Below, in pieces: positions 46,317-61,480 of a stretch of 64,000 nucleotides of DNA. Position 1 is the stretch's first letter, and every line of letters starts with the position of its first letter. The position numbers were made by a program, and so were the translations under genes. The stretch comes from Halodesulfovibrio sp. GTDB taxonomy: Bacteria > Desulfobacterota > Desulfovibrionia > Desulfovibrionales > Desulfovibrionaceae. The stretch covers positions 62,001-126,000 of the forward strand of contig NZ_JADMLB010000061.1 in assembly GCF_015482765.1 (NCBI RefSeq), in the 5' to 3' direction. Below the pieces are notes generated by a model. That model was not told the DNA's origin. It was given only the letters and a program-made list of their open reading frames with translations, and made no database searches.

Positions 46317-47134
46317 ATTTAAACCCCAGTAAAGTTCGTTAGATAGATACCTAAGCCATTATTTGTACGAGGAAGTAGTTCCAGTGTTTAGCCGGAATAT
46401 ACATACAACTTGCTATTTTCGTTCTCTTTTCTAAAAAGAGATATCGACCAATATAGGTATAGCGCTAAACGCGTCAATCATTTTGTAACAGACCCCCATC
46501 TCGTAAAAACATTTGCATGTGATAGGTGTGAATGTTGTTTTTTTGCATCATGACTCGGCTGAAAGCGATTCGAAAAAATGCATTGTTACAGCTAGCTTGT
46601 GAAAAATAGAATAAGTTGCCAGTGCTGCTAGATAGCTAAAGTGCAGTGCTAGGTTAGACTGATGTTGCATTAATGCATCTTTTTTGAGGCATGTTGCATA
46701 ACAGATTCAACGGTAACGGTTTCATTCTTTTGATAAAGGAAGTGAAACAGTAGAAAACAAAAGTGTTGTGTGTGCATATAGTGCAAAATTACAAATAAGA
46801 AAAAAAATGAAAAAAATAAATTTTTTATAATAGTCTGAATTTTAATGAAAAAAAATCATTAATAGTAATTCTTCCATTACTGCCTAATTAGAACTTGGTT
46901 GTTTGCACATTTATTGCTAAATGAAATTGCTTGTTAATTTTCGTACAAAGCACTTTTTGCTTTGCGTTAATTACTATCACAGTAAAGCGCTGTGAATAGT
47001 TTGCCGGAACAAACGAAGTGAAGAGCGTTTAAGTCGCAGGGGTAGTGACATGTTCTGGCGAAATTAAAAGGTTTTTTGGGTTACTGAATTTTATTTGGTG
47101 CAAACAGCAACTTTCATCACCGGAAGGAATTGAG
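46317..47134. other. Intergenic regulatory region upstream of the BMC alcohol dehydrogenase
   Basis: About 820 AT-rich bases without a gene. Contains two copies of TGTTGCAT (46663-46670, 46692-46699) and a sigma-54-like element at 46903-46918. The rest shows nothing I recognise. Confidence 0.6.
46903..46918 (+). promoter_or_regulatory. Sigma-54-like promoter of the alcohol dehydrogenase
   Basis: TTGCACATTTATTGCT: matches TGGCAC-N5-TTGCW except T for G in the second position. It lies 217 bases before the start codon. Confidence 0.5.
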
Positions 47135-48322
47135 ATGAGCTTTCAGCAGACAGTAGCACCTGTCGAATTTTACATGCCGCCAGTCACAGTTATCGGATCT
47201 GGCGCAATTAAAGAGATTCCAGCAAGACTTGCGTCTCTGGGAGGTACCAAGCCTTTACTCGTAACCGATAAAGGTATGACGCAGCTTGGGGTTACCGCTT
47301 CTATCGTGCAGCTTTTACAGGGCGCTGGCATGCAGTGTGCTGTGTACGACGAAACTGTACCTAACCCTACTGATAAAAACGTAAGTGATGGCCTTACACA
47401 GTACTCCTCCAATGGTTGTGACTGCATCATTACCCTTGGTGGCGGTAGCGCACACGACTGCGGTAAAGGTATCGGCATTGTAGCAACAAACGGTGGCACA
47501 ATTCATCAGTACGAAGGTGTAAACAAGGCTCGTGTGGCTATGCCTCCTTTCCTTGCTGTTAACACTACCGCAGGTACCGCGTCTGAGATGACACGTTTCT
47601 GCATTATCACTGATACCGCGCGTAAAGTTAAAATGGCGCTTGTTGATTGGCGTGTTACTCCAAGTATTGCTCTTGACGATCCTGAGTTAATGGTTGGTAT
47701 GCCTCCAAGTCTGACTGCAGCAACTGGTCTTGATGCTTTGACTCACGCCGTTGAAGCTTATGTTTCAACCGGTGCGACACACATGACAGACGCAAACGCT
47801 GAAAAAGCTATTAAACTTATTTCTAAATATCTGCGTCGTGCTGTTGGTAACGGTCGTAACCTCGAAGCACGTGAAGCTATGTGTTACGCACAGTATCAGG
47901 CTGGTATGGCGTTTAACAACGCTGGTCTTGGTTATGTTCATGCAATGGCTCACCAGCTTGGTGGCTACTTGAACTTGCCGCATGGTGAGTGTAATGCAAT
48001 CCTCCTGCCGCATGTTTGTGAGTTTAACATGCTCGCAGCAATGGATCGCTTTGCGGAAATGGCTGAGTTCTTCGGTGTTCAGGGTACAGCGCGTACCCAG
48101 CGTGAAGCTGCTAGCAACGTAATTCAGGCAATTCGTGATCTCATGCAGGACGTTGGCATTCCAGCAAGTCTTACTCTTCTCGCTAAGAAATACGGTAAGA
48201 CTGTTAATCCTGAAGACTTTGAAGTTATGGCAGAGAGTGCAATGAAAGACGCTTGTGCAGCTACAAACCCTCGTGGCATGCGTAAAGAAGACATCATCGC
48301 AATCTACCGTAAGATTTTATAG
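47135..48322 (+). CDS. Iron-containing alcohol dehydrogenase of the BMC locus
   Basis: 395 residues from the ATG at 47135 (GGAAGGA upstream); 30 in-frame codons before it are discounted. Group III dehydrogenase: NAD-binding ITLGGGSAHDCGKGIG, NTTAGTASEMTRFCI, and the metal site ATGLDALTHAVEAYVS with GYVHAMAHQLGGYLNLPHGECNAILLPH. Close in type to PduQ/EutG/DhaT enzymes, which reduce the compartment's aldehyde and regenerate NAD+, or run in reverse from alcohol. No obvious encapsulation peptide. It lies 2.3 kb before the shell operon, flanked by a sigma-54-like promoter and a terminator. Confidence 0.92.
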   Translation: MSFQQTVAPVEFYMPPVTVIGSGAIKEIPARLASLGGTKPLLVTDKGMTQLGVTASIVQLLQGAGMQCAVYDETVPNPTDKNVSDGLTQYSSNGCDCIITLGGGSAHDCGKGIGIVATNGGTIHQYEGVNKARVAMPPFLAVNTTAGTASEMTRFCIITDTARKVKMALVDWRVTPSIALDDPELMVGMPPSLTAATGLDALTHAVEAYVSTGATHMTDANAEKAIKLISKYLRRAVGNGRNLEAREAMCYAQYQAGMAFNNAGLGYVHAMAHQLGGYLNLPHGECNAILLPHVCEFNMLAAMDRFAEMAEFFGVQGTARTQREAASNVIQAIRDLMQDVGIPASLTLLAKKYGKTVNPEDFEVMAESAMKDACAATNPRGMRKEDIIAIYRKIL

Positions 48323-48829: not shown

Positions 48830-49753
48830 CTAGTTACCGAGGCGTGCGAGAACTTCAGTAACGATGTCTTTTACGAGGTCAGCAGAAGCTGCACCACCAG
48901 CTACGGAACCAGCAGGAGCGGTTTCGAGGCCGAGGAGTTTTGCTGCGTTGTCGTGCATAACTTTCTGGCGAACTTCAGGAGTGAAAGGAAGTTCACTGTA
49001 AGTCTGAAGTGCCTGACGGAAATCAATGAATGGGTGAGCAGATGCGTAAAGCAGCTTGTCAGAAATCATTGTGTTAGCAGCCTGAATGTAAGCTTCAGAC
49101 ATTGGGGAACGTTCGTATTCAGAAATTTCAATAAATACGTTTTTGTTACGTTCAGCAACAATGATAGCTTCGTTAACCCATGGGTAGCCGCCGTGGCTGA
49201 TAACGATTTTGAGCTCAGGGAAGTCGCGAGCAACAAAGTCAATGTAGCGAGGTGCAACGTGGTCAACTACTGCTGCAGGAACGAGAGTAGCAGGACCGGT
49301 TGTGAATACGAGAGGGATCTCGAGTTCGCAACATTTTGCGTAAATTGGGTAGTACTTAGCATCGTTCGGGTAGAGCTGTGCAAGGTATGGGTCAACAGCA
49401 GCACCACGGAGACCGAAAGTCTGAACAGCGTGGTTCAGGTCGCGGATGCCCTGCATGCCTTTGTGTGGATCCATACCGAAGAAGCCGATGAACTTCTCTG
49501 GGTGTGCCTGAACAAAGTCAATAACACTCTGGTTGTTAGCTTTGGAACCGTAAGTGGTTTCACAGTCACGACCAGTGATAACAGCGCGTACAACGTTGTT
49601 AGCAGTGAGGTCCTGAACACACTCAGCTACGGTCTGAGCTTTCATTTTAGAAAAGTCAATGTGCTGGCAGAGACCTTTGAACATAGAGCTGTTCTGGATT
49701 CCGCTCAGAGTTTCCGCAGTGTTAGGACGGAAACGGAAGTCAATCACGTTCAT
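48830..49753 (-). CDS. BMC-targeted amidohydrolase-fold protein with lost metal ligands
   Basis: 307 residues from the ATG at 49753. The fold matches the Amidohydro_2/ACMSD-like TIM barrel (GFFGMDPHKGMQGIRDL, LKIVISHGGYPWVNEAI, VFIEISEY). However, the metal-binding HxH near the start reads FRFRP (R7, R9), the HTG motif is TTG (151-153), and the late GSDYP motif is ASAHP (A239). Only H187 of the usual ligands remains. After an Ala/Gly linker (280-290) the tail SADLVKDIVTEVLARLGN forms an amphipathic helix resembling the aldehyde dehydrogenase's encapsulation peptide. Likely cargo of the compartment; catalytic or structural role unknown. Own sigma-54-like promoter. Confidence 0.82.
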   Translation of the reverse strand: MNVIDFRFRPNTAETLSGIQNSSMFKGLCQHIDFSKMKAQTVAECVQDLTANNVVRAVITGRDCETTYGSKANNQSVIDFVQAHPEKFIGFFGMDPHKGMQGIRDLNHAVQTFGLRGAAVDPYLAQLYPNDAKYYPIYAKCCELEIPLVFTTGPATLVPAAVVDHVAPRYIDFVARDFPELKIVISHGGYPWVNEAIIVAERNKNVFIEISEYERSPMSEAYIQAANTMISDKLLYASAHPFIDFRQALQTYSELPFTPEVRQKVMHDNAAKLLGLETAPAGSVAGGAASADLVKDIVTEVLARLGN

Positions 49754-49859: not shown

Positions 49860-49875
49860 AGCAAGTAGAATGCCA
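49860..49875 (-). promoter_or_regulatory. Sigma-54-like promoter of the amidohydrolase-like gene
   Basis: Minus strand TGGCATTCTACTTGCT: GG and GC at exact spacing, -12 box TTGCT perfect, one mismatch in the -24 box. About 107 bases before the start codon. Confidence 0.62.
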
Positions 49876-50471
49876 GAACGTACTAAAACAGCCTTGTGAA
49901 AAGAAGATTTTGCTTTTTTAGGGCAGGGGAAAGTGCTTGAATGCGAGGGATTAACCAAATGAATCTATAGCAAAACTAGAAAAATTAGGCGAAACGAATT
50001 GATTAGTTAATCAAAGTTTTTCATGAAAAAACACCTAGCTAGAGGTCTTAGAACTGGAAAAAAAGGGGTGAAATTTGATGCGTACTTGCAGCATTGAGAC
50101 GAAAAGTAACCTAATTGTACGGAATGCAATGCTTTGCGAGAAAAATGACGATGTTGCATGTTGGCATCTTAAGTAAAATTGTTACTTACTGTTAGTAAAA
50201 CTGAAGAATATAACTTGTTGAAATGATATAACTAGACTAAATTATTAGTAATCAATATCGATTAAATCTTTATGTTGTAGAAATGCATCCTGTTTATAAT
50301 TCCACTGAGTAAAGTGGTTTTGCTTCTCTCTTGTGTTATAAATCACAAAGCTTTTCTTCTTTTCTTTTTTTTCTTCCTTTCTCTCTCAACATGCAGAAAA
50401 CAACAGTTTATTTGTAAACGTCTCCATTCGTGACAAGTCTTTTAACATTATGTATAGAGACACGTCTTTTT

Positions 50472-50618: not shown

Positions 50619-51449
50619 ATGGGAAAACGGATAGTCACCGAGGCTGACGTTCACAAAAGTATTGAAAGTGGGTCTAAAACTCTTAGACTTAACCTTTGTG
50701 AATGCATTATTACTCCACAGGCTCAGGATCAAGCTGAACTGCTTGGAGTAACTTTCATCGATTCTTCTCTTGAAGATGCTGCGCCTGCACAGGCTTGTAG
50801 CGCATCTGCTCCTGAAGCATGTGCCGCTCCAGCTCCTGCACCAGTAGAAGCTCCAGTAGCAGCCCCGGCTGCACCGGTCGCTCCGGCAGCACCAGCTGCG
50901 CCGGCACCGGCTCCAGAGTGCTCTGAAGCTGATATTGTTGTGCTGCAGGTTTGCGCGCTCCTGCAAGATAAGCTTCCGGCAGGAACAAGCCTTGATGTTC
51001 TCGAGGCCATTGTACGCCGTGTTGTTACCGCTAAACTTGGCGAAACACCATGTGCTACTGATACTCCTGCTGCACCAGCTTCTGCCGCTCCGGTTGCTGA
51101 ACCGGCTACTGGCAATAACGGTGTTTGCTTTATCGACGGACAGCGCTTGCAGAAACAAGGTTCCAGTCCTGTAGCAGTTGACGAGCAGGTATTTATTGCA
51201 GACGCAATTGGCGCATGTGATAATGCTAAGCTTGCTGGCGGTTACATGGAATGGGAACGCGCTTCCTTTACTCGTACTGTAGAATCCCCTGAGATTGGTA
51301 TTGTCCTTGAGGGCGAATTACATCTTACCATCGGTTCCGAGACTAAAATCGGTAAAGCCGGTGACATGATGTACTTCCCTGAAGGTGTTGAAGTTACCTA
51401 CAGTACTCCTTCTTCTGTACGCATTGCTTGCGTAAACAACATCCAGTAA
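50619..51449 (+). CDS. eutQ: EutQ-like cupin protein with Ala/Pro linkers
   Basis: 276 residues. First an N-terminal domain common in BMC proteins (about 1-50, [13 protein letters not shown] ... [14 protein letters not shown]). Then an Ala/Pro-rich linker (about 54-100), a pair of amphipathic helices (103-119 and 124-141, resembling encapsulation peptides), a second linker (145-165) and a C-terminal cupin (about 190-276, [33 protein letters not shown]). EutQ proteins have been linked to acetate kinase activity in Salmonella. The long helix-bearing insertion is unlike short EutQ. GGAGG six bases before the ATG; first gene of the operon. Confidence 0.83.
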
Positions 51450-51463
51450 TCACGGAGATTGAT

Positions 51464-52444
51464 GTGAGCATTCTGGAACGTTGTAAAGAAGCATGTAGAC
51501 AGAATCCTAAGACTGTTGTGTTCCCGGATTGTCTTGACGAGCGTGTGTTTGAAGCCGCAACCCGCCTTAAGGCGGACGGCCTTTGTGAACCAGTGCTTGT
51601 TCAGTCCCCTTTTGCTGTTCGCAGCAAAATGCGTGAGGCTAAAATCCGCACTTCCGGTTTTACCGTAGTTGACCACACCAGTCCTACACTGCTTGAAAAA
51701 AATGCAACCGAGTTTTTCGCAATGCGCGAAAAGAAAGGCAAGCCGATCACAATGGATGCTGCTGTAAAAGCCATGCGTTGTCCGCTTGCTGGTGCTGCCA
51801 TGATGGTTCGCCGTAATGAAGCACAGCTTGGTGTTGCTGGTAACCTCTCCTCTACTGGTGATGTTATCCGCGCCGGGTTGCATATGTTGCCAAAACAGAA
51901 AGGTCTTAAAACCGTTTCTAGTTTCTTTTTCATGATTGCCCCTGAAGGTGGTAAGGACTACATTTTTGCAGACTGTGGCGTTGTACCTGCTCCTAACGCA
52001 GCTACACTTGCAGATATCGCCATTGCATCTGCGGATAAAGCCCGAAAGCTTCTTGGTGAAGAACCAAAAGTTGCCATGCTCTCTTTCTCTACTAAAGGTA
52101 GTGCAAAGCATGATCGTGTAACTCTTGTTCAGGAAGCTTTGGTAAATGTCCGTGAACGTGAATCTGATCTTCTCATTGATGGTGAATTGCAGCTTGATGC
52201 TGCGATTGTACCAAGCGTTGCTGCTTCCAAGGCTCCTGAGAGCCCAATTAAAGGTGAAGCTAACGTACTGGTATTTCCATCCTTGGAAGCAGGAAACATT
52301 GCATACAAGCTTGCACAGCGTCTTGGCGGTTACACCGCATTAGGACCGCTTTTGCAGGGCTTCGCTGCTGGTTGGCATGACCTTTCCCGTGGCTGTAGTG
52401 CAGATGATATTTATAAAGTTGCCGTAGTAGGCCAGTGCCTCTAG
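51464..52444 (+). CDS. eutD: EutD-type phosphate acetyltransferase
   Basis: 326 residues from the GTG at 51464, with GGAG six bases upstream; a TTG at 51428 inside eutQ is less likely. PTA_PTB family: [69 protein letters not shown]-like [11 protein letters not shown] and the C-terminal [23 protein letters not shown] ... [13 protein letters not shown] closely match EutD. Converts acyl-CoA to acyl-phosphate, recycling CoA inside the compartment. PduL, the more common BMC enzyme, is absent here. Confidence 0.93.
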
Positions 52445-52500
52445 TCCGGCAAACAAAGTAAAACATACGTCAGTTACTGACTAATTAATTGGAGGATACA

Positions 52501-52773
52501 ATGGACGCATTAGGAATGATCGAAACTAAAGGTCTTACCGCACTTATCGAAGCTTCTGACGCAATGGTAAAAGCTGCTCGTGTACAGCTCGTTGGTTACA
52601 AGCAGATCGGTGCTGGTCTTGTTACTGCAATCGTTCGTGGTGACGTAGCTGCTTGTAAAGCTGCTACCGACGCAGGTGCAGCAGCTGCACAGCGCATCGG
52701 TGAAGTTGTAGCGGTTCACGTAATTCCTCGTCCTCACGGCGACCTGGAAGACGTTTTTCCTTTTAAACGCTAA
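52501..52773 (+). CDS. BMC-H shell protein 1
   Basis: 90 residues of the single-domain BMC fold ([28 protein letters not shown], then [16 protein letters not shown]-type block). Forms hexameric shell tiles; pore loop region QIGAGLV resembles PduA/EutM. Nearly the same as BMC-H 3 (55152-55430). GGAGG sits just before the ATG. Confidence 0.94.
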
Positions 52774-52813: not shown

Positions 52814-54151
52814 ATGGACAAAGTAACACTTATCCGTTCGATCCAGAATGCTGGTGTTGTCGGAGAAGGCGGGGCCGGTTTTCCGGCCCACGTCAAATAC
52901 GACGCACAAGTAGATACGGTCATTGCCAATGGTTGTGAATGTGAACCATTGCTCCATACTGATCAGTACATCATGAAGTCCCACGCTTCTGACATCATTC
53001 GTGCCATGCAGGCTGTTGTAGCAGCTACAGGGGCTACACGTGGTGTTATTGGCATTAAACGCAAATATACTGAACTCGCAGAAATTTTTGCTAAGGGTAT
53101 TGAAGGTACTGGCCTTGAGCTTGCACAGCTCGATAACTTTTACCCGGCAGGTGATGAGCAGATTCTGGTTCATGAAGTAACCGGAAAGACAATTCCTCCT
53201 TTGGGATTGCCTAAAGATGTAGGCGCTGTGGTTGCTAACGTCGGTACTCTGCAGACTGTTGCAGATGCTATGGACGGCAAGCCGCTTACTCATAAGGTGC
53301 TCACAGTTACCGGTGATGTAGCCAAACCTTCTGTTATCCGTGTACCTCTGGGTACCAGCCTCAAAGAATGTCTCGAGTTCTGTGGTGGTGCAACCAACGC
53401 AGATCCTGTATACATTCTTGGCGGCCCGATGATGGGACGTATGTGTGATTCTCAGGCTGCCTTTGAGAATGAAGTAATCACAAAAACCAGCGGTGGTCTT
53501 ATTGTGCTCCCTCGCGGACACTACCTGCATAAGCAGGCGACCCTCGACCTTCACACCATGCAGCGTCGCGCTGCAACAGCCTGTATCCAGTGTCGCATGT
53601 GTACAGAGCTGTGCCCACGTTACCTCGTAGGTCACAGCTTTGAGACTCATAAAGTTATGCGTGCATTTGGTGGTGGACAGGATGTTGCAATGGGTGCCAC
53701 TCAGGCAGCCATGTGTTGTGAATGTGGTGTTTGTGAACTCTTCAGCTGTCCTATGGGACTTTCCCCGCGTCGTATCAACAGCGCGTTGAAAGGTCAGTTC
53801 CGTGAAAAAGGTGTTCAGTACACTGGACCGCGTGAAGTTCGTTCCGAGCAGTCTGCAATGCGTCCGTACCGTAAAATTCCGGTACCGCGTCTTGCATCAA
53901 AAATCGGCATTGCTGATTACATGAATATTCATCCTGAATTTGAAGGCGATTACAAACCAGCTCAGGTAAGTCTCCCACTTCGCATGCACATTGGAGCACC
54001 TTGTGTTCCTCAGGTGAAAGTTGGAGATACCGTAACGGTTGGTCAGCTTATCGGTGCAGTGCCTGAAGGCGCTCTCGGTGCAACCGTTCATGCTTCTATT
54101 GCAGGTACTGTAGTAGAAGTTGGCAACAATATCGTCATTAAAGGAGCATAG
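52814..54151 (+). CDS. pduS: PduS-like Fe-S flavoprotein
   Basis: 445 residues related to RnfC/PduS. N-terminal glycine-rich NVVGEGGAGFPAHVK-type block (GVVGEGGAGFPAHV) for NADH/FMN, SLBB region in the middle, two 4Fe-4S motifs (CIQCRMCTELCPRY near 258 and CCECGVCELFSCPMGL near 302) and a C-terminal barrel-sandwich hybrid domain (VPQVKVGDTVTVGQLIG). In the Pdu compartment it is a cobalamin reductase; without a B12 enzyme here it more likely passes electrons from NADH across the shell through the iron-sulfur BMC-T encoded next, recycling NAD+. Confidence 0.92.
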   Translation: MDKVTLIRSIQNAGVVGEGGAGFPAHVKYDAQVDTVIANGCECEPLLHTDQYIMKSHASDIIRAMQAVVAATGATRGVIGIKRKYTELAEIFAKGIEGTGLELAQLDNFYPAGDEQILVHEVTGKTIPPLGLPKDVGAVVANVGTLQTVADAMDGKPLTHKVLTVTGDVAKPSVIRVPLGTSLKECLEFCGGATNADPVYILGGPMMGRMCDSQAAFENEVITKTSGGLIVLPRGHYLHKQATLDLHTMQRRAATACIQCRMCTELCPRYLVGHSFETHKVMRAFGGGQDVAMGATQAAMCCECGVCELFSCPMGLSPRRINSALKGQFREKGVQYTGPREVRSEQSAMRPYRKIPVPRLASKIGIADYMNIHPEFEGDYKPAQVSLPLRMHIGAPCVPQVKVGDTVTVGQLIGAVPEGALGATVHASIAGTVVEVGNNIVIKGA

Positions 54152-54153
54152 TT

Positions 54154-54711
54154 GTGGTAACTCAACTCCAGTCTGTTGGTATGATCGAATTTACTTCTAT
54201 CGCAGCAGGCATTGAAGCAGCAGACCGCATGATGAAAGCTTCTCTTGTAGAACCTCTCATGCTTAAAACCATCTGTCCCGGCAAATTTGTCGTTGCAGTA
54301 CATGGTGATGTTGCAGCTGTTCAGTCTGCGGTAGACGCAGGTATGAGCCGCGCTGACGGTACTGTTGCGGATCATTTTGTAATCCCTAACATCAACGAAG
54401 CTGTTGTTTCTGCAATGGCATGTGCAACTCCGGAACCTTCCGGTTCTGCTGTTGGTGTTATCGAAACTTTCTCCGCAGCGTCTTCTATTCTCGCAGCAGA
54501 TACAGCAGCTAAAACAGCTGATGTAGATATCGCAGAAGTACGCATTGCAATGGGTCTCGGTGGTAAAGCTTTCTGTATTCTCACCGGCGACGTAGCAGCA
54601 GTAAACATGGCAGTTGAAGCAGCATCTAATGTTGTTTCTCAGAGTGCTATGCTTGTTCGCAAAGTCGTTATCCCTAGCGCAGCTCCGGAAGTTTTGCGTA
54701 ATATTTTGTAG
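54154..54711 (+). CDS. pduT: PduT-like trimeric BMC-T shell protein with Fe-S pore cysteine
   Basis: 185 residues made of two BMC domains (about 1-90 and 95-185). LKTICPGKFVVAVHGD carries the cysteine that in PduT binds a 4Fe-4S cluster at the trimer pore. Starts at a GTG with AAGGAG upstream, two bases after pduS stops. The pairing with pduS supports electron transfer through the shell. Confidence 0.93.
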   Translation: MVTQLQSVGMIEFTSIAAGIEAADRMMKASLVEPLMLKTICPGKFVVAVHGDVAAVQSAVDAGMSRADGTVADHFVIPNINEAVVSAMACATPEPSGSAVGVIETFSAASSILAADTAAKTADVDIAEVRIAMGLGGKAFCILTGDVAAVNMAVEAASNVVSQSAMLVRKVVIPSAAPEVLRNIL

Positions 54712-54759: not shown

Positions 54760-55113
54760 ATGAACGACTCTTTAGGTTTAGTTGAAGTTGTAGGTCTCGT
54801 AGCTGCTGTTGAAGCTGCAGATGCTATGTCCAAAGCTGCTCGCGTAAATGTACGTAGCGTAGCAAACGCTGATGCAGGTCTCTTGACTGTTATTTGTGAG
54901 GGTGACCTTGCTGCAGTTGGTGCTGCTGTAGACGCTGGTAAAGCTGCTGCATCTCGCCTTGGCGAATGCGTAGGTACCAACGTTATTGCTCGTCCTGGTG
55001 ACGGCCTTGGTGACATGATTGCAAATAAAATTGGTTCTATCTTTGATGAGCCAAAAGGTAAGCCTGCAAAAGCTGCTGAAAAGCCTGCTAAGCCGGTTCA
55101 GAAGAAAAAATAG
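54760..55113 (+). CDS. BMC-H shell protein 2 with basic C-terminal tail
   Basis: 117 residues: a BMC domain (about 1-90) then a Lys/Pro/Ala-rich tail (KGKPAKAAEKPAKPVQKKK). The domain differs from the other two (VNVRSVANADAGLLTVICEGDLAAVGAAVDAG). Tail may face cargo or DNA-like polyanions; unknown. Confidence 0.92.
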   Translation: MNDSLGLVEVVGLVAAVEAADAMSKAARVNVRSVANADAGLLTVICEGDLAAVGAAVDAGKAAASRLGECVGTNVIARPGDGLGDMIANKIGSIFDEPKGKPAKAAEKPAKPVQKKK

Positions 55114-55151: not shown

Positions 55152-55430
55152 ATGGGCGATGCTCTTGGTATTATTGAAGTAAAAGGCATGACTGCTCTCG
55201 TTGAAGCGTCTGACGCCATGACTAAAGCTGCACGCGTTGAACTCGTAGGTTACGAGCGCATCGGTGCTGCACTTGTTGTTGCTCTTATCCGTGGCGACGT
55301 TGCTGCTTGCAAAGCTGCTATCGATGCTGGTGCTGCTGCAGCACAGCGCGTTGGTGAAGTTGTAGCAACTCACGTTATCCCACGTCCTCATGCTGATCTT
55401 GAGGAAGTTTTCCCTATTAAAACTAAGTAA
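55152..55430 (+). CDS. BMC-H shell protein 3
   Basis: 92 residues, full BMC fold, highly similar to BMC-H 1 ([37 protein letters not shown]). At the pore-proximal loop it has RIGAAL where protein 1 has QIGAGL, which may change pore size. An AGGAGA ribosome site precedes it. Confidence 0.94.
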
Positions 55431-55477
55431 ACTGCCAACGGAAGACTGCTTGGTGGCAATTGAAAAGGAGAGACAAC

Positions 55478-55762
55478 ATGGAATTAGGAAGAGTACGAGG
55501 ACAGGTAGTTTCTACTGTTCGTGATCCGGGCGTGCCTCCTGTAACGTTGCTGCTGGTAGATCTTGTTACCGCTGACGGTCAAGTTGTTCGTTCTGGGCAG
55601 GTAGCAGCTGACACCCTTGGTGCCGGTGAAGGTGAAATTGTTTTGTTAGTTCGTGGTAGCTCCGCGCGTTTTACTATGAATGACAGACCTCCTCTTGACC
55701 TGAGTGTAATCGCGATTATCGACCAGATTACCGCACAGGGCGAAACGGTTTACAATAAATAA
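55478..55762 (+). CDS. eutN: BMC-V (EutN/CcmL-type) vertex protein
   Basis: 94 residues from the ATG at 55478 with AAAGGAG upstream. The beginning MELGRVRGQVVSTVRDPGVP and the block GQVVRSGQVAADTLGAGEGEIVLLVRGSSAR are typical of the pentamers that close the shell corners. Lies directly before the aldehyde dehydrogenase. Confidence 0.93.
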   Translation: MELGRVRGQVVSTVRDPGVPPVTLLLVDLVTADGQVVRSGQVAADTLGAGEGEIVLLVRGSSARFTMNDRPPLDLSVIAIIDQITAQGETVYNK

Positions 55763-55779: not shown

Positions 55780-57207
55780 ATGGCTATCGCACGTGAACAG
55801 ATAGAGTCTATTGTTTCTGAAGTTCTTACTCAGCTTAATGGTGCAGCTCAGGCTCCTGCTGCTGCTCCAGCACCTACCGCAGGCGACTGGGGTATTTTCG
55901 ACGAACTGGATGACGCTGTAGCTGCTGCAAAAGTAGCTCAGACTAAAATCGGTACTATTGCTATCCGCAATAAAATTATCGACATCATCCGTCGCGCTGC
56001 ACGTAACAATGCACGTCGTCTTTCTGAAATGGCTGTTGAAGAAACCGGCATGGGTAACGTTGAAGACAAGATTGCGAAAACTCTTCTTGTTGCAGACCGC
56101 ACTCCAGGTACTGAAGTAGTATCTGCTGAAGCAATTACTGGTGACAACGGTTTTACAATGATCGAAAAAGCTCCTTGGGGCGTAATCGCATCTGTAACTC
56201 CTTCCACCAACCCAGGCTCTACTGTTATCAACAACGGTATTAGCATGATCGCTGCTGGTAACTCTGTAGTATTCGCTCCGCACCCAGCTGCTAAGCGTAT
56301 TACTCAGGAAGCAATCAAAATCATCAACAAAGCTGTTGTTGCTGAAACCGGCATTGCGAACCTCCTCGTTGCTGTTAAAGAACCTTCCATTGATGCAGCT
56401 AAGCGCCTCTTTACATACGAAGGTATCAACCTTCTCGTAGTAACCGGCGGTGAAGCTGTAGTTGAAGCTGCACGTAAAACTACCAACAAGCGCCTCATGG
56501 CTGCTGGTGCTGGTAACCCTCCTGTAGTTGTTGATGAAACTGCTGACATCGCTCGTGCAGCTGAATCCATCTACATTGGTGCATCTTTCGATAACAACCT
56601 CATCTGCGCTGACGAAAAAGAAATCATCGCAGTTGATTCTATTGCAGATCAGCTCAAAGCTGAGATGAAAAAAGTTGGTGCTTACGAGTTGACTCTCGAG
56701 CAGGCTAACACCATCGCTCAGACAGTAATTCTCGATTACGGCACTGACAAAGCACGTGCTAATCCAAAATGGGTTGGTCGCGACGCTAAAAAACTCGCTG
56801 CAATCGCAGGCGTAACTGTACCAGATACATGTAAGCTTCTCATCGTAGACGCTGGTCGTGATTCTGACTACGTTTTCGCTAAAGTAGAGCAGATGATGCC
56901 TCTCGTACCAGTTCTTCGTGCACATAACTTCGAAGAAGCTCTCGAATGGGCTCTCAAACTCGAGCGCGGTCTCAGCCACACTGCTGGTCTGCACTCCACT
57001 AACGTAAACAACATGGAAGCTATGGCTCGTGCTACTAACACAAGCCTCTTCGTTAAAAACGGTCCTCACGTTGCTGGCCTTGGTGCTGGCGGTGAAGGTT
57101 GGACTTCCATGACTATCTCCACCCCTACAGGTGAAGGCGTTACCAACGCGGCTACATTTACCCGTATCCGTCGTTGTGCTCTCGTTGATTGCTTTAGGAT
57201 CGTTTAG
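55780..57207 (+). CDS. CoA-acylating aldehyde dehydrogenase (PduP/EutE type)
   Basis: 475 residues. An amphipathic N-terminal helix (residues 1-20, AREQIESIVSEVLTQLNG) and an Ala/Pro linker form a typical encapsulation peptide. The catalytic part has GVIASVTPSTNPGS, VTGGEAVVEAAR, and ASFDNNLICADEKE with the catalytic cysteine near residue 270, then HTAGLHSTN. Converts acetaldehyde or propionaldehyde with CoA and NAD+ to acyl-CoA. Core enzyme of the compartment. Confidence 0.94.
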   Translation: MAIAREQIESIVSEVLTQLNGAAQAPAAAPAPTAGDWGIFDELDDAVAAAKVAQTKIGTIAIRNKIIDIIRRAARNNARRLSEMAVEETGMGNVEDKIAKTLLVADRTPGTEVVSAEAITGDNGFTMIEKAPWGVIASVTPSTNPGSTVINNGISMIAAGNSVVFAPHPAAKRITQEAIKIINKAVVAETGIANLLVAVKEPSIDAAKRLFTYEGINLLVVTGGEAVVEAARKTTNKRLMAAGAGNPPVVVDETADIARAAESIYIGASFDNNLICADEKEIIAVDSIADQLKAEMKKVGAYELTLEQANTIAQTVILDYGTDKARANPKWVGRDAKKLAAIAGVTVPDTCKLLIVDAGRDSDYVFAKVEQMMPLVPVLRAHNFEEALEWALKLERGLSHTAGLHSTNVNNMEAMARATNTSLFVKNGPHVAGLGAGGEGWTSMTISTPTGEGVTNAATFTRIRRCALVDCFRIV

Positions 57208-57209
57208 TT

Positions 57210-58025
57210 ATGGCCATTTCTTGGGAGTTAGCATGCGAGCGACTTGATCGCGCCGCAGCCATGATGAATGACACCGAGCCTGTTTCGGTTGAAGGCCCAA
57301 TTCACATCGGCATTGACTTAGGTACAGCAGACGTTGTGCTTATGGCAGTTGATGGTGAAGGTGAGCCGGTTGCTGTCTTCCTGGAATGGACAGAAGTTGT
57401 GCGTGATGGTGTTGTAGTGGACTTTGTCGGTGCTTGCGACGTTGTGCGCAAATTCGTAGCCATGGCTGAAGAACGCCTCGGCATCGAAATCACCGAAGCC
57501 TCTACCTCTTTCCCTCCAGGTACTGATGCGCGTCTTTCCACTAATATTTTGGAAACCGCAGGTCTGGACGTAACCTATGTTGAAGACGAACCAAGCTGTG
57601 TAGCATCTCTTCTTGAGTTGGATAAAGCAGCAGTTGTCGATATCGGTGGTGGTACAACTGGTACCGCAATCGTTAAAGATGGCGAGATCGTTTTCAGTGA
57701 TGATGAGCCGACTGGTGGTAAACATATTACGCTTACCATTGCCGGCCACTATGATGTTGATCTGGAAAAAGCTGAAGAGTACAAGCGTAAGGCAGAGGAA
57801 TACAGAATTCTTCCGATCGCTAAGCCCACTCTTGAGCGTGTCAGCGATATTGTAGCTTCTCACATGAAAGGCTATGAAGTTGAATCAATCCTTCTTTCCG
57901 GTGGTACTTGCTGCTTACCGGGGATTGAAACAATCTTCGAGAAAGAGCTTAAGCTTCCCGTACATCTTCCAAGCCAGCCGCTGATGCTAACACCGCTTTC
58001 TATTGCGTCGTTAGCTTTGCGTTAG
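57210..58025 (+). CDS. eutJ: EutJ-like actin-fold protein
   Basis: 271 residues with the ASKHA fold: IHIGIDLGTADVVLMAVD (phosphate 1), VVDIGGGTTGTAIVKDGEIV (phosphate 2) and ILLSGGTCCLPGIETIFEKEL (adenosine). EutJ is a putative chaperone of the Eut compartment. ATG two bases after the dehydrogenase stop; last gene of the operon, followed by a strong terminator. Confidence 0.92.
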   Translation: MAISWELACERLDRAAAMMNDTEPVSVEGPIHIGIDLGTADVVLMAVDGEGEPVAVFLEWTEVVRDGVVVDFVGACDVVRKFVAMAEERLGIEITEASTSFPPGTDARLSTNILETAGLDVTYVEDEPSCVASLLELDKAAVVDIGGGTTGTAIVKDGEIVFSDDEPTGGKHITLTIAGHYDVDLEKAEEYKRKAEEYRILPIAKPTLERVSDIVASHMKGYEVESILLSGGTCCLPGIETIFEKELKLPVHLPSQPLMLTPLSIASLALR

Positions 58026-58589: not shown

Positions 58590-59870
58590 TTACATGAGCA
58601 TTGACGGGAGGAAGAGAACGAGCTGCGGGAACATCACGAGCAAGAAGATAACGCCGATTGTGATGCAGCAGAACGGAATCGCTTTGGCAGAGATCTCTTC
58701 AAGAGATACGTCTGCGATACCCGAGGCAATGAACATGTTTTCTCCAAGTGGTGGAGTAGAGAAGCCTACACCACAGCAACATACAAGCACGATACCGAAG
58801 TGGATTGGATCCACGCCGAACGCTTTCATAACTGGAAGCAGTACCGGTGTAACGAGAAGAATGATTGCTAATGTTTCCATGAACATGCCAAGGAACAGGA
58901 GAATAACTACAACAAAGATCCAGATAACCATTGGGTTGGAAGTAAATGCGAGAAGCATTTCTACAATCTGGTCAGGAATTCGGTACTGTACGAGTAAGCG
59001 ACCGAATGCGTATGCTGTAAACATAATAATCAGTACGCGACCAGTGAGCCATGAGGTTGTCTCAAGAGACTTCATCAACGCTTTGATGGTAAGTTCTTTG
59101 TAAATGAAGAAACCAACGAACAGTGTGTAGAAGATAGCTACGATAGCTGCTTCTGTTGGTGTAAAGAAGCCTGAGTAGATACCACCCAAGATAACGATAG
59201 GTGCCATCATTGCCCAGAAACCGTCTTTCATGGATTTGAAGAGGGTCGCTGCAGACCATTCAGCCATATCCGGTGAAACTTCCATTTTACGACACTTGAA
59301 CAAGTGCATCGCGATAAGACCAACAGCGATTAAGAGACCTGGAATAACACCACCGAGGAACATTTTGGTGATAGATTCCTGTGCCGCTACGCCGTAGATA
59401 ACCATAGGAATAGACGGTGGAATAATAATACCTACACCACCTGCAGTAGCTGTAGCTGCCGCAGCGTAGCCAGGCTCGTAGTCACGTTTGATCATGGCGG
59501 GAATCATCAGCATACCAACCGCAGCAGTAGTAGCCGGGCCGGAACCAGAAATAGCGCCGAAGAATACACAAGCAAGAGCGGTAGAAATTGCAAGGCCGCC
59601 ACGAACTGGACCTACGAGGTTCTCAGCAATGAGAACTAATCGTTTAGAAACACCAGCACATTCCATCAAGGCACCGGCGAGAACAAACGCTGGCAACGCC
59701 ATGATCGGGAAGCTGTTAACTGAGGTGAATGCGATCTGGATGAGCGTACTCAAATCCTGACCTACTACCATGAATGAGAACATGGCAGACACACCAAGTG
59801 CTACTGTAATCGGTGCCCCTAAGAGCATGAGCACCAAAAATGTTAGAAATAAAACTTCTGCAACACCCAT
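58590..59870 (-). CDS. dctM: TRAP transporter large permease DctM
   Basis: 426 residues, about twelve transmembrane segments. Family landmarks: FVLAGALMECAGVSKRL, FGAISGSGPATTAAVG, GGVGIIIPPSIPMVIYGV, and near the end ETLAIILLVTPVLLPV and GFSTPPLGENMFI. Sodium- or proton-driven uptake with DctQ and DctP. Three bases separate it from dctQ. The substrate cannot be read from this subunit; the operon faces the BMC genes, suggesting it imports the compartment's substrate. Confidence 0.95.
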   Translation of the reverse strand: MGVAEVLFLTFLVLMLLGAPITVALGVSAMFSFMVVGQDLSTLIQIAFTSVNSFPIMALPAFVLAGALMECAGVSKRLVLIAENLVGPVRGGLAISTALACVFFGAISGSGPATTAAVGMLMIPAMIKRDYEPGYAAAATATAGGVGIIIPPSIPMVIYGVAAQESITKMFLGGVIPGLLIAVGLIAMHLFKCRKMEVSPDMAEWSAATLFKSMKDGFWAMMAPIVILGGIYSGFFTPTEAAIVAIFYTLFVGFFIYKELTIKALMKSLETTSWLTGRVLIIMFTAYAFGRLLVQYRIPDQIVEMLLAFTSNPMVIWIFVVVILLFLGMFMETLAIILLVTPVLLPVMKAFGVDPIHFGIVLVCCCGVGFSTPPLGENMFIASGIADVSLEEISAKAIPFCCITIGVIFLLVMFPQLVLFLPSMLM

Positions 59871-59872
59871 GA

Positions 59873-60415
59873 CTAGTCCTCCTCACCCTTGAGAGCATTT
59901 TTACTCTTTTCAATATCAGCTTTGTCAGGGTCTTCAATTTCTTGCTTCAGAATCCATTTGATGTAGTTGACCTGCAGAATTCGCAGAGTCATGAGTGAGA
60001 AGCTTAATGGGAAGATCATGTACACCCAGCTGAGCTGCCAATCGAGCGCAGGGGTTGAGTACGGAAATTCGATCAGGTCCTGAATGGTCTGAATGCCTTT
60101 CCAAGTCATCACGCTGTTAAATACGATCCAGACAACATCCATGAGAAGCATGGAAACATCAGCTACAATCGGTGGAAAGAGCTTAAACTGGAGCGTTACA
60201 CGGTTGTGAGCAGCGAGTCGTGCCGCGTAGGAAGCACCGAAGAATACGAACCAAACAAAGGAGAAGCGGGCTACTTCCTCACTCCAGTACAATGGTGTCC
60301 CAATTTCGCGCAGAATAATCTGCAAGAAAAGAATAACAACAAAGAATGCAAGGAGTGCTTGGCAGATATAACTCTCAACATGGTCGAGAATATTAAAAAG
60401 GATTTTTTTGAACAT
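59873..60415 (-). CDS. dctQ: TRAP transporter small permease DctQ
   Basis: 180 residues with four hydrophobic helices and the DctQ block IILREIGTPLYWSEEVARFSFVWFVFFGASYAARLAAHNRV. Cytoplasmic tail of about 25 charged residues. Between dctP and dctM on the same strand. Confidence 0.93.
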   Translation of the reverse strand: MFKKILFNILDHVESYICQALLAFFVVILFLQIILREIGTPLYWSEEVARFSFVWFVFFGASYAARLAAHNRVTLQFKLFPPIVADVSMLLMDVVWIVFNSVMTWKGIQTIQDLIEFPYSTPALDWQLSWVYMIFPLSFSLMTLRILQVNYIKWILKQEIEDPDKADIEKSKNALKGEED

Positions 60416-60441
60416 CAGGTGTCCCCTAGTTTAAATGAAAT

Positions 60442-60465
60442 GAGCCGGTGGTGATCCACCGGCTC
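60442..60465 (-). promoter_or_regulatory. Hairpin between dctP and dctQ
   Basis: GAGCCGGTGG, loop of 4, CCACCGGCTC. No T tract follows; likely an mRNA-stabilising or partial-termination element giving excess binding protein over permease. Confidence 0.65.
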
Positions 60466-60481
60466 TCTAGTATCTGCTAGA

Positions 60482-61480
60482 CTATTTTTTACCGATGTAA
60501 CCGAGGTAACGATCGAGCACTTCCTGACCGCCAACAAAGTCAGTCATTTTTGGCCATACGTTGTCGATTGCGAGTTTTTTCCACTCAGCTTCGTCTTCGA
60601 GAGTATCGATCTGGATACCGGAAGCGATGAGCTCTGCTTTAGCGCGGCCAGCGTCTACGAGCTGGAATGCAAGGCAGTATTCCTGAGCTTCACGGCCAGC
60701 TTCAACAACGAGTTCCTGCATTTCAGGAGAGAGCTTTTTGTAAAGACGCTCAGAGATCATCATTGGCTGGAGCTGGTAAGTGTAATGAACTTCGGTGATG
60801 TACTTCTGTACTTCGTTGAATTTAGCAGCCTGGAAAGTGATGTAACCGTAGCACTGACCATCTACTACGCCCTGCTGAAGAGCGGTGAAGGTTTCTGCCC
60901 AAGAGATAGGCACTGGGTTTGCACCCCAAGAACGGTAAGTTTCAAGAATAACTGCAGACTGAGGAACACGGAATTTCATGTCTTTTACGTCAGCAAGTTT
61001 TTTGATTGGGCGCTTGGAGTTAGAAAGGTAACGGTAGTCAGTGTAGGTCCAACCAAGAACACGGAAGCCGCCTTCTTTTACTGCAAACTCGTTAAGCATA
61101 TGGTGAGCAGGGCCGGTTGCGCCACGTACTACGTCGTACATGTTCTCAAAAAGGTAAGGGAGAGTAAGGATACCAAGCTTTTTAACAAAAGGAACGGTGT
61201 TTGCGATACCTACTACTGCCATGTCGAGGTTACCGCGGCGAACGTTCTGAATCATTTCGGTTTCATCACCGAGCTGACCACTTGGGAAGATCTGTACTTC
61301 AACTTTACCGTCTGTACGACCTTCTACAATTTCCTTAAAGCGGGTAGCGATAGCACCCATTTCGGAATCAATAGGGTCACCCATACCGATGCGAAGAACA
61401 GTTGGGTCCTGTGCAAATGATGCAGATGAAACTGCCATCATCGCTACCAGTGCAACCAGCACTAATGCTTTCCTAAACAT
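60482..61480 (-). CDS. dctP: TRAP transporter substrate-binding protein DctP
   Basis: 332 residues with a cleavable signal peptide (about 1-23, ending SSASFA). DctP fold: LRIGMGDPIDSEMGAIATRFKEIVEGRTDGKVEVQIFPSGQLGDETEMIQNVRRG, then MKFRVPQSAVILETYRSWGANPVPISWAETFTALQQGVVDGQ, where the Arg of RVPQS normally grips a substrate carboxylate or other anion. Ligand is thus expected to be an anionic small molecule. Preceded by AGGAGG. Likely controlled by a sigma-54-type promoter 225 bases upstream. Confidence 0.94.
   Translation of the reverse strand: MFRKALVLVALVAMMAVSSASFAQDPTVLRIGMGDPIDSEMGAIATRFKEIVEGRTDGKVEVQIFPSGQLGDETEMIQNVRRGNLDMAVVGIANTVPFVKKLGILTLPYLFENMYDVVRGATGPAHHMLNEFAVKEGGFRVLGWTYTDYRYLSNSKRPIKKLADVKDMKFRVPQSAVILETYRSWGANPVPISWAETFTALQQGVVDGQCYGYITFQAAKFNEVQKYITEVHYTYQLQPMMISERLYKKLSPEMQELVVEAGREAQEYCLAFQLVDAGRAKAELIASGIQIDTLEDEAEWKKLAIDNVWPKMTDFVGGQEVLDRYLGYIGKK

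Follow-up and report, generated by a model that had tools for sequence, protein, structure and literature searches.

A family of amidohydrolase-fold proteins, here called AMH, travels almost one-to-one with sulfite-releasing glycyl-radical enzymes (GREs) in many sulfite-respiring bacteria, which belong to two distant groups. One member is encoded next to a compartment (BMC) locus in the window, by which we mean the whole 64-kb stretch of DNA analysed here. The best explanation, which we put forward tentatively, is that AMH is a metal-free amidohydrolase-fold protein with an arginine pocket that serves GRE sulfite-lyases and is targeted by its C-terminal tail into an isethionate BMC. It is very likely that AMH functions in organosulfonate respiration and that the window BMC uses an isethionate sulfite-lyase (IslA) encoded elsewhere in the genome.

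Bacteria that respire isethionate and DHPS release H2S in the human gut and in sediments. Much is known about the lyases IslA and HpsG, but their companion gene in two distant bacterial groups bears only the annotation "amidohydrolase". The compartment type is already known, and the gene has already been listed under that name; in the open-licence literature, we found no paper that ties the AMH subfamily to sulfite-lyases or remarks on the missing metal site or the tag. AMH is probably not a dead scaffold but an overlooked enzyme of the H2S-producing sulfonate pathway. Recognising it as a co-regulated, conserved partner that has an active site of its own makes the further needs of this pathway directly testable, and the family provides a clean natural experiment in how enzymes acquire compartment tags.

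Fold, lost metal site and conserved pocket

AMH is encoded on the minus strand (ATG start at 49753, stop codon at 48832–48830; Table 1) and matches Pfam Amidohydro_2 (PF04909) over residues 34–276 with 131.5 bits against a curated cut-off of 26.4, while a search of NCBIfam families returned no match. The AlphaFold model is a TIM barrel with a mean pLDDT of 92. The protein carries the motifs D5-F-R7-F-R9-P, T151-T-G, S186-H187-G-G-Y-P and A237-S-A239-H-P; in the alignment, intact-site homologues display H/H (or Q), HTG, H and GSD at these columns, and the columns changed in the AMH clade are occupied in them by His, His/Gln, Ile/Trp and Asp. The preliminary description had read HxH as RxR, HTG as TTG and GSDYP as ASAHP, with only H187 left, and translation together with the homologue alignment verified each of these residues. 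Compared with the ACMSD-type ligand set (HxH, His, His, Asp), AMH has R7, R9, T151 and A239 and retains H187 only. The lack of a canonical metal site, as judged from the aligned residues, is confirmed, and the ligand loss is common to the GRE-partner AMH clade.

Structure prediction and superposition identified BB4693 from Bordetella bronchiseptica (PDB 3irs, 3k4w), also a TIM barrel, as the closest solved relative of AMH. It is both the best PDB sequence match (E 2.5e-31) and the best fold match of the model (Z 30.3, rmsd 2.8 over 265 residues, 27% identity). Both proteins contain DFRxRP, the third Arg, HG..PW and Ala in place of Asp, features that place AMH in the BB4693-type RxR subfamily; unlike AMH, BB4693 has no cargo tail and no known function, and a literature search on it found nothing. 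Since BB4693 bears the same replacements, the loss of the metal site marks a broader subfamily of uncharacterised function, and we know of no RxR homologue with a known activity. The ACMSD/Amidohydro_2 decarboxylases (e.g., 2,6-dihydroxybenzoate decarboxylase), on which the preliminary description had proposed superposing AMH, share its fold (Z 20–23) and its Pfam family. These enzymes bind metal through HxH, His and Asp, whereas AMH has substitutions at both HxH positions, at the following His and at the Asp.

The altered site is strongly conserved. Across the AMH clade (41 proteins, 43–100% identical to the window protein), R7, R9, R62, D63, D95, D121, Y138, C141, S186, H187, G188, Y190 and A239 are invariant, and E212 and E214 are nearly so. 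Among all 53 homologues, R7, D63, D95, Y138, S186, H187 and P241 are kept in 53/53, and R9, R62, D121 and C141 in 52/53, the exception being a distant homologue; R7, R9 and H187 had been singled out beforehand as the residues whose conservation should be checked. In the model, the invariant residues sit after strands 1 to 8, at the active-site end of the barrel. A dN/dS of 0.03–0.06 between close AMH pairs indicates strong purifying selection, and homologues outside BMC loci, which lack the tail, keep the same residue set. The suggestion that AMH is a pseudoenzyme scaffold of the BMC, which would predict no conserved active-site set, did not hold up against the invariant Arg/Asp/His/Cys residues at the barrel mouth, and many tail-less homologues outside BMC loci, of the kind named in advance as speaking against that description, carry the residues of AMH. 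Given this retention of the pocket in non-BMC homologues and the purifying selection, a BMC-specific dead scaffold appears unlikely.

Pairing with sulfite-lyases and shared promoters

AMH homologues were collected from public genomes, and the AMH clade was delimited at 300 bits or more. The window's phylum was sampled with 297 genomes: the clade was present in 11, all with a close IslA or HpsG, and AMH was found in 11 of the 12 genomes with a close GRE (5/5 and 5/6, respectively, when this first sample was counted by genus). The co-occurrence gave Fisher values of 4e-19 by genome, where genomes are not independent lineages, and 2e-9 by genus. In the class around Desulforamulus, the second one sampled, AMH was present in every one of the seven genomes whose IslA scored at least 1380 bits and in none of the six whose GRE scored 1081–1154 bits; one genome of this class (G384) holds an AMH of 343 bits without a close GRE. 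A close GRE was present in 12/12 re-searched genomes holding an AMH-clade locus.

The pairing extends to gene order and sequence divergence. Genes for the GRE and its activase (islAB) usually adjoin AMH, both inside and outside BMC loci. The BMC-linked GREs are of the IslA type, with 5ymr and 7kq3 as their best matches among solved enzymes, and a Bilophila GRE (L021) is of the DHPS type, matching 6lon, which we take to be HpsG, with 1767 bits versus 1232. Genomes with both IslA and HpsG contain two AMHs, one adjoining each GRE; the HpsG partners form a clade with C189 (beside H187), where the IslA partners have G or A. Pairwise distances of AMHs mirrored those of the neighbouring GREs (r 0.88, 28 pairs).

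The promoters also point to joint expression with the lyases. The window contains a single exact sigma54-type site, the one upstream of AMH (Table 1), and the genome contains 24; exact sites also precede the islA gene and the TRAP/islB operon of the same genome. In other genomes, AMHs that head a transcript mostly have sigma54-type sites with at most one mismatch, and the same is true of most islA/hpsG genes and of many EutQ operons; upstream of outgroup AMHs, no site that good was found. A second motif, TTGCA-N5-GCATC, is shared by the AMH/EutQ intergenic region, the region upstream of the iron-containing alcohol dehydrogenase (Fe-ADH) gene and, in two copies, the islA intergenic region (L032, 6785 and 7299); it has 16 copies in the 3.7-Mb genome and is only suggestive. 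A search for a wider regulon of this motif led to universal-stress-protein genes on contig C16 and was dropped.

Several other GREs and AMH-type genes were encountered. The GREs of L002, L009 and L018 match NCBIfam NF048011, "(2S)-3-sulfopropanediol dehydratase", which takes in IslA-type enzymes well above its cut-off; as it covers isethionate sulfite-lyase types, the family name may mislead. Bilophila has a third AMH paralogue (L121:7776-8606, minus strand) with no GRE within the stretch read. A Mailhella genome with five close GREs contains further sulfite-lyase-like GREs (L123, L124) with AMH-type neighbours of their own, one of them BB4693-like (DFRLRPP). In the window genome, a second GRE lies beside an aldehyde dehydrogenase (L029, G000:C28), probably in a choline-type BMC.

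The C-terminal tail and the compartment locus

The AMH tail consists of ETAPAGSVAGGAAS as linker followed by ADLVKDIVTEVLARLGN. Its last 17 residues are the segment likened to the peptide of the acylating aldehyde dehydrogenase (AldDH); local alignment of the tail with the AldDH N-terminus MAIAREQIESIVSEVLTQLNG scored 34, a value reached by 0/1000 tail shuffles, and the AlphaFold model shows a low-confidence linker (282–288) and a helix (288–306). The resemblance of IVTEVLARL to the AldDH N-terminus and the Ala/Gly linker noted in the preliminary description are therefore well founded. A C-terminal extension of at least 20 residues occurs in 22/22 homologues in BMC contexts versus 0/31 outside; the 31 take in two cut-off duplicates and one distant homologue, and for four of the 22 (L008, L009, L012 and L014) the BMC context is assigned from EutJ/EutQ at the edge of the stretch. 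Judged by eye, the extension is peptide-like in 21 of the 22, the exception being the Pro/Phe-rich one of Bilophila L120. AMH combines a terminal amphipathic helix and a flexible linker with occurrence of the tail in BMC contexts only, as expected of BMC cargo, and the earlier proposal that it is compartment cargo gains support from these predicted features. The AMH tree requires BMC association to have changed at least three times, suggesting that encapsulation tags were gained more than once in the family, and the separate gains apparently include Mailhella L122, with a Cys-rich linker and peptide, and L156 from a Desulforamulus-class genome. The cysteine-rich linker of the Mailhella protein (L122:8774-9775, in a BMC locus), CSNCTCCNKGKDCYCSKGGC, lies before the peptide and possibly binds metal or an Fe-S cluster.

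The window locus contains the gene set of an isethionate BMC (shell proteins, AldDH, phosphotransacetylase (PTA), PduS and EutQ) but lacks islAB, and no GRE was found within the window. The genome encodes one close IslA (G000:C24:12818-15295), on another contig than the BMC locus, where islA is accompanied by an activase gene, isethionate-type TRAP genes and a regulator. In L002, L003, L006, L008–L012, L014–L017, L120, L122 and L156, islAB is located within the BMC locus, and isethionate-induced BMCs with IslA as signature enzyme have been shown experimentally in Bilophila (PMC8667426). Taken together, these three lines suggest that the window BMC is most likely an isethionate compartment whose signature enzyme is encoded in trans, and its aldehyde source is almost certainly, to judge from gene content, the IslA on the other contig. 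The preliminary statement that no other candidate signature enzyme exists is correct for the window, Fe-ADH aside, and incorrect for the genome, which has IslA on C24. The EutQ-like protein carries an extended Ala/Pro-rich insert, and a segment in its interior looks like an encapsulation peptide.

The closest described system is the isethionate-BMC cluster of Bilophila wadsworthia (HMPREF0179_00636-00649), which lists an "amidohydrolase" (00649) with no role given (PMC8667426). Like the window, this IslAB BMC comprises shell genes, acylating AldDH, PTA, EutQ, PduS and the "amidohydrolase". Bilophila L120 reproduces the published gene order, and the AMH it encodes shares 54% identity with the window protein, so the "amidohydrolase" of that cluster belongs to the AMH clade. 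Unlike Bilophila, the window genome has islA and islB on another contig and contains Fe-ADH and EutJ, and its AMH ends in a canonical encapsulation peptide in place of the Pro/Phe-rich extension.

Table 1. Positions of AMH, its sequence features, neighbouring genes and promoter motifs in the window
Feature	Position	Strand	Basis
TTGCA-N5-GCATC upstream of Fe-ADH	46665..46679	+	second exact copy
Iron-containing alcohol dehydrogenase (Fe-ADH); likely NAD recycling or ethanol entry	47129..48322	+	
AMH, metal-free amidohydrolase-fold protein, 307 aa	48830..49753 (stop included)	-	
Encapsulation-peptide helix, residues 289-307, ASADLVKDIVTEVLARLGN	48833..48889	-	sequence and model
Ala/Gly/Ser linker, residues 277-288; model confidence lowest at 282-288	48890..48925	-	
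A237-S-A239-H-P replacing GSDYP	49031..49045	-	alignment
H187, sole canonical ligand position kept	49193..49195	-	alignment
T151-T-G replacing HTG	49295..49303	-	alignment
D121, invariant acid after strand 4	49391..49393	-	alignment and model
R62, invariant third pocket arginine, after strand 2	49568..49570	-	alignment and model
R7-F8-R9 where HxH metal ligands stand in relatives	49727..49735	-	alignment
Sigma54-type -24/-12 promoter TGGCATTCTACTTGCT, 106 nt upstream of AMH start	49860..49875	-	
TTGCA-N5-GCATC in AMH/EutQ intergenic region; possible activator site	50154..50168	+	exact copy
EutQ-like cupin protein with Ala/Pro-rich insert	50619..51449	+	
Phosphotransacetylase (PTA)	51428..52444	+	
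BMC-H shell protein (EutM-like)	52489..52773	+	
PduS/RnfC-like electron-transfer protein	52814..54151	+	
BMC-T shell protein (PduT-like)	54154..54711	+	
BMC-H shell protein (EutK-like)	54760..55113	+	
BMC-H shell protein	55152..55430	+	
BMC-P vertex protein (EutN)	55475..55762	+	
Acylating aldehyde dehydrogenase (AldDH), N-terminal encapsulation peptide IESIVSEVLTQL	55780..57207	+	
EutJ-like protein	57210..58025	+	
TRAP transporter genes adjoining the BMC locus; not the isethionate-type TRAP beside islA	58590..61480	-	named from sequence

Possible roles of AMH

IslA forms acetaldehyde and sulfite from isethionate, and HpsG forms hydroxyacetone and sulfite (PMC8397734); recombination of acetaldehyde and sulfite has been reported in IslA assays (PMC8473560). 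Pocket and gene context suggest that AMH most likely handles this sulfite/carbonyl product pair. In the proposed scheme, the sulfite and carbonyl compound (acetaldehyde, hydroxyacetone) released by IslA or HpsG would re-add to form an alpha-hydroxysulfonate, a reaction expected to be worst in the closed lumen. AMH would split this adduct, with R7, R9 and R62 gripping the sulfonate and either H187 or an acid (D95, D121, E212) deprotonating the hydroxyl; the freed acetaldehyde would pass to the acylating AldDH and the sulfite to sulfite reductase. Metal-free chemistry would suit a sulfite- and sulfide-rich cell. An adduct lyase fits a protein that is common to both GREs, would be lumenal when they are, and possesses three invariant Arg and one His. 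Cleavage of carbonyl-bisulfite adducts by the arginine pocket is an inference that we regard as somewhat doubtful, and as doubtful the wider proposal of a new activity, in which metal-free amidohydrolase-fold alpha-hydroxysulfonate lyases accompany IslA/HpsG and, whether cytosolic or BMC-recruited, keep sulfite and aldehyde apart. A literature search for adduct-cleaving enzymes returned no relevant paper.

Two published observations count against this explanation. IslA and AdhE convert isethionate to acetyl-CoA in vitro with AMH absent (PMC6386719), so AMH would aid flux or tolerance rather than act as an essential catalyst, and the descriptions of published Desulfovibrio isethionate clusters include no AMH-type gene. 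The RxR pocket is moreover older than the sulfonate link, occurring in BB4693 and in the relatives L154 and L155, which have no GRE, and is therefore not specific to sulfonates. A conversion of hydroxyacetone into the BMC aldehyde by AMH was considered and dropped, as the BMC-linked GREs are of the IslA type.

AMH may instead catalyse another step of sulfonate respiration, for example with the carbonyl product or an off-pathway sulfonate as its substrate, or in the repair of damage by acetaldehyde or sulfite. This is possible, if short of probable: the genomic and structural arguments that AMH is a conserved partner enzyme apply equally, and the fold, judging by its neighbours, supports decarboxylases, hydratases and hydrolases, but the carbonyl products of IslA and HpsG differ, so an acetaldehyde-specific step fits less well than one involving sulfite plus carbonyl. 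The main structural rival is an adaptor or chaperone that binds IslA or HpsG and whose tail carries untagged IslA into the shell, the pocket being a leftover or a ligand sensor. The repeated gain of AMH tails in BMC loci (L001–L017 and the window, L026, L122, L156), the by-eye resemblance of IslA N-termini in BMC loci (L002, L008, L009) to those of non-BMC IslA, and the paralogue-by-paralogue pairing with its mirrored distance matrix all fit a binding partner, and Bilophila IslA co-fractionates with BMCs (PMC8667426). However, a docking protein should keep surface patches, whereas AMH keeps the barrel mouth (three Arg, Asp, His), and IslA enters the BMCs of Bilophila even though the AMH extension there is not peptide-like; we consider an adaptor unlikely.

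Three further readings concern the metal site and the identity of the compartment. An ethanol metabolosome, entered through Fe-ADH and with AMH as a bystander, is a quite unlikely identity for the window BMC. Within the genus (window, L001), Fe-ADH lies immediately upstream, and its region shares TTGCA-N5-GCATC with the AMH/EutQ region; yet a close ADH is absent from almost all orthologous loci, most of which have IslAB, and the motif is found beside islA as well. A rebuilt metal site, with ligands from D95, D121, C141, H187 or E212, would draw on residues that are (nearly) invariant and located at the barrel mouth, but three of the four canonical ligand positions are lost clade-wide and one invariant His is all that is left, making continued metal dependence improbable. 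The preliminary suggestion that AMH itself supplies the aldehyde as signature enzyme of the window BMC had in its favour the cargo tag and the lack of a GRE in the window. It is now very improbable: IslA is encoded in the same genome and inside many orthologous loci, it is the signature enzyme of the Bilophila isethionate BMC (PMC8667426), and AMH also occurs beside IslA and HpsG where there is no BMC at all.

In the Desulforamulus class, the RxR homologues L154 and L155 are located beside MFS transporters, and L155 also beside OYE-like flavin reductases, suggesting other substrates for these relatives.
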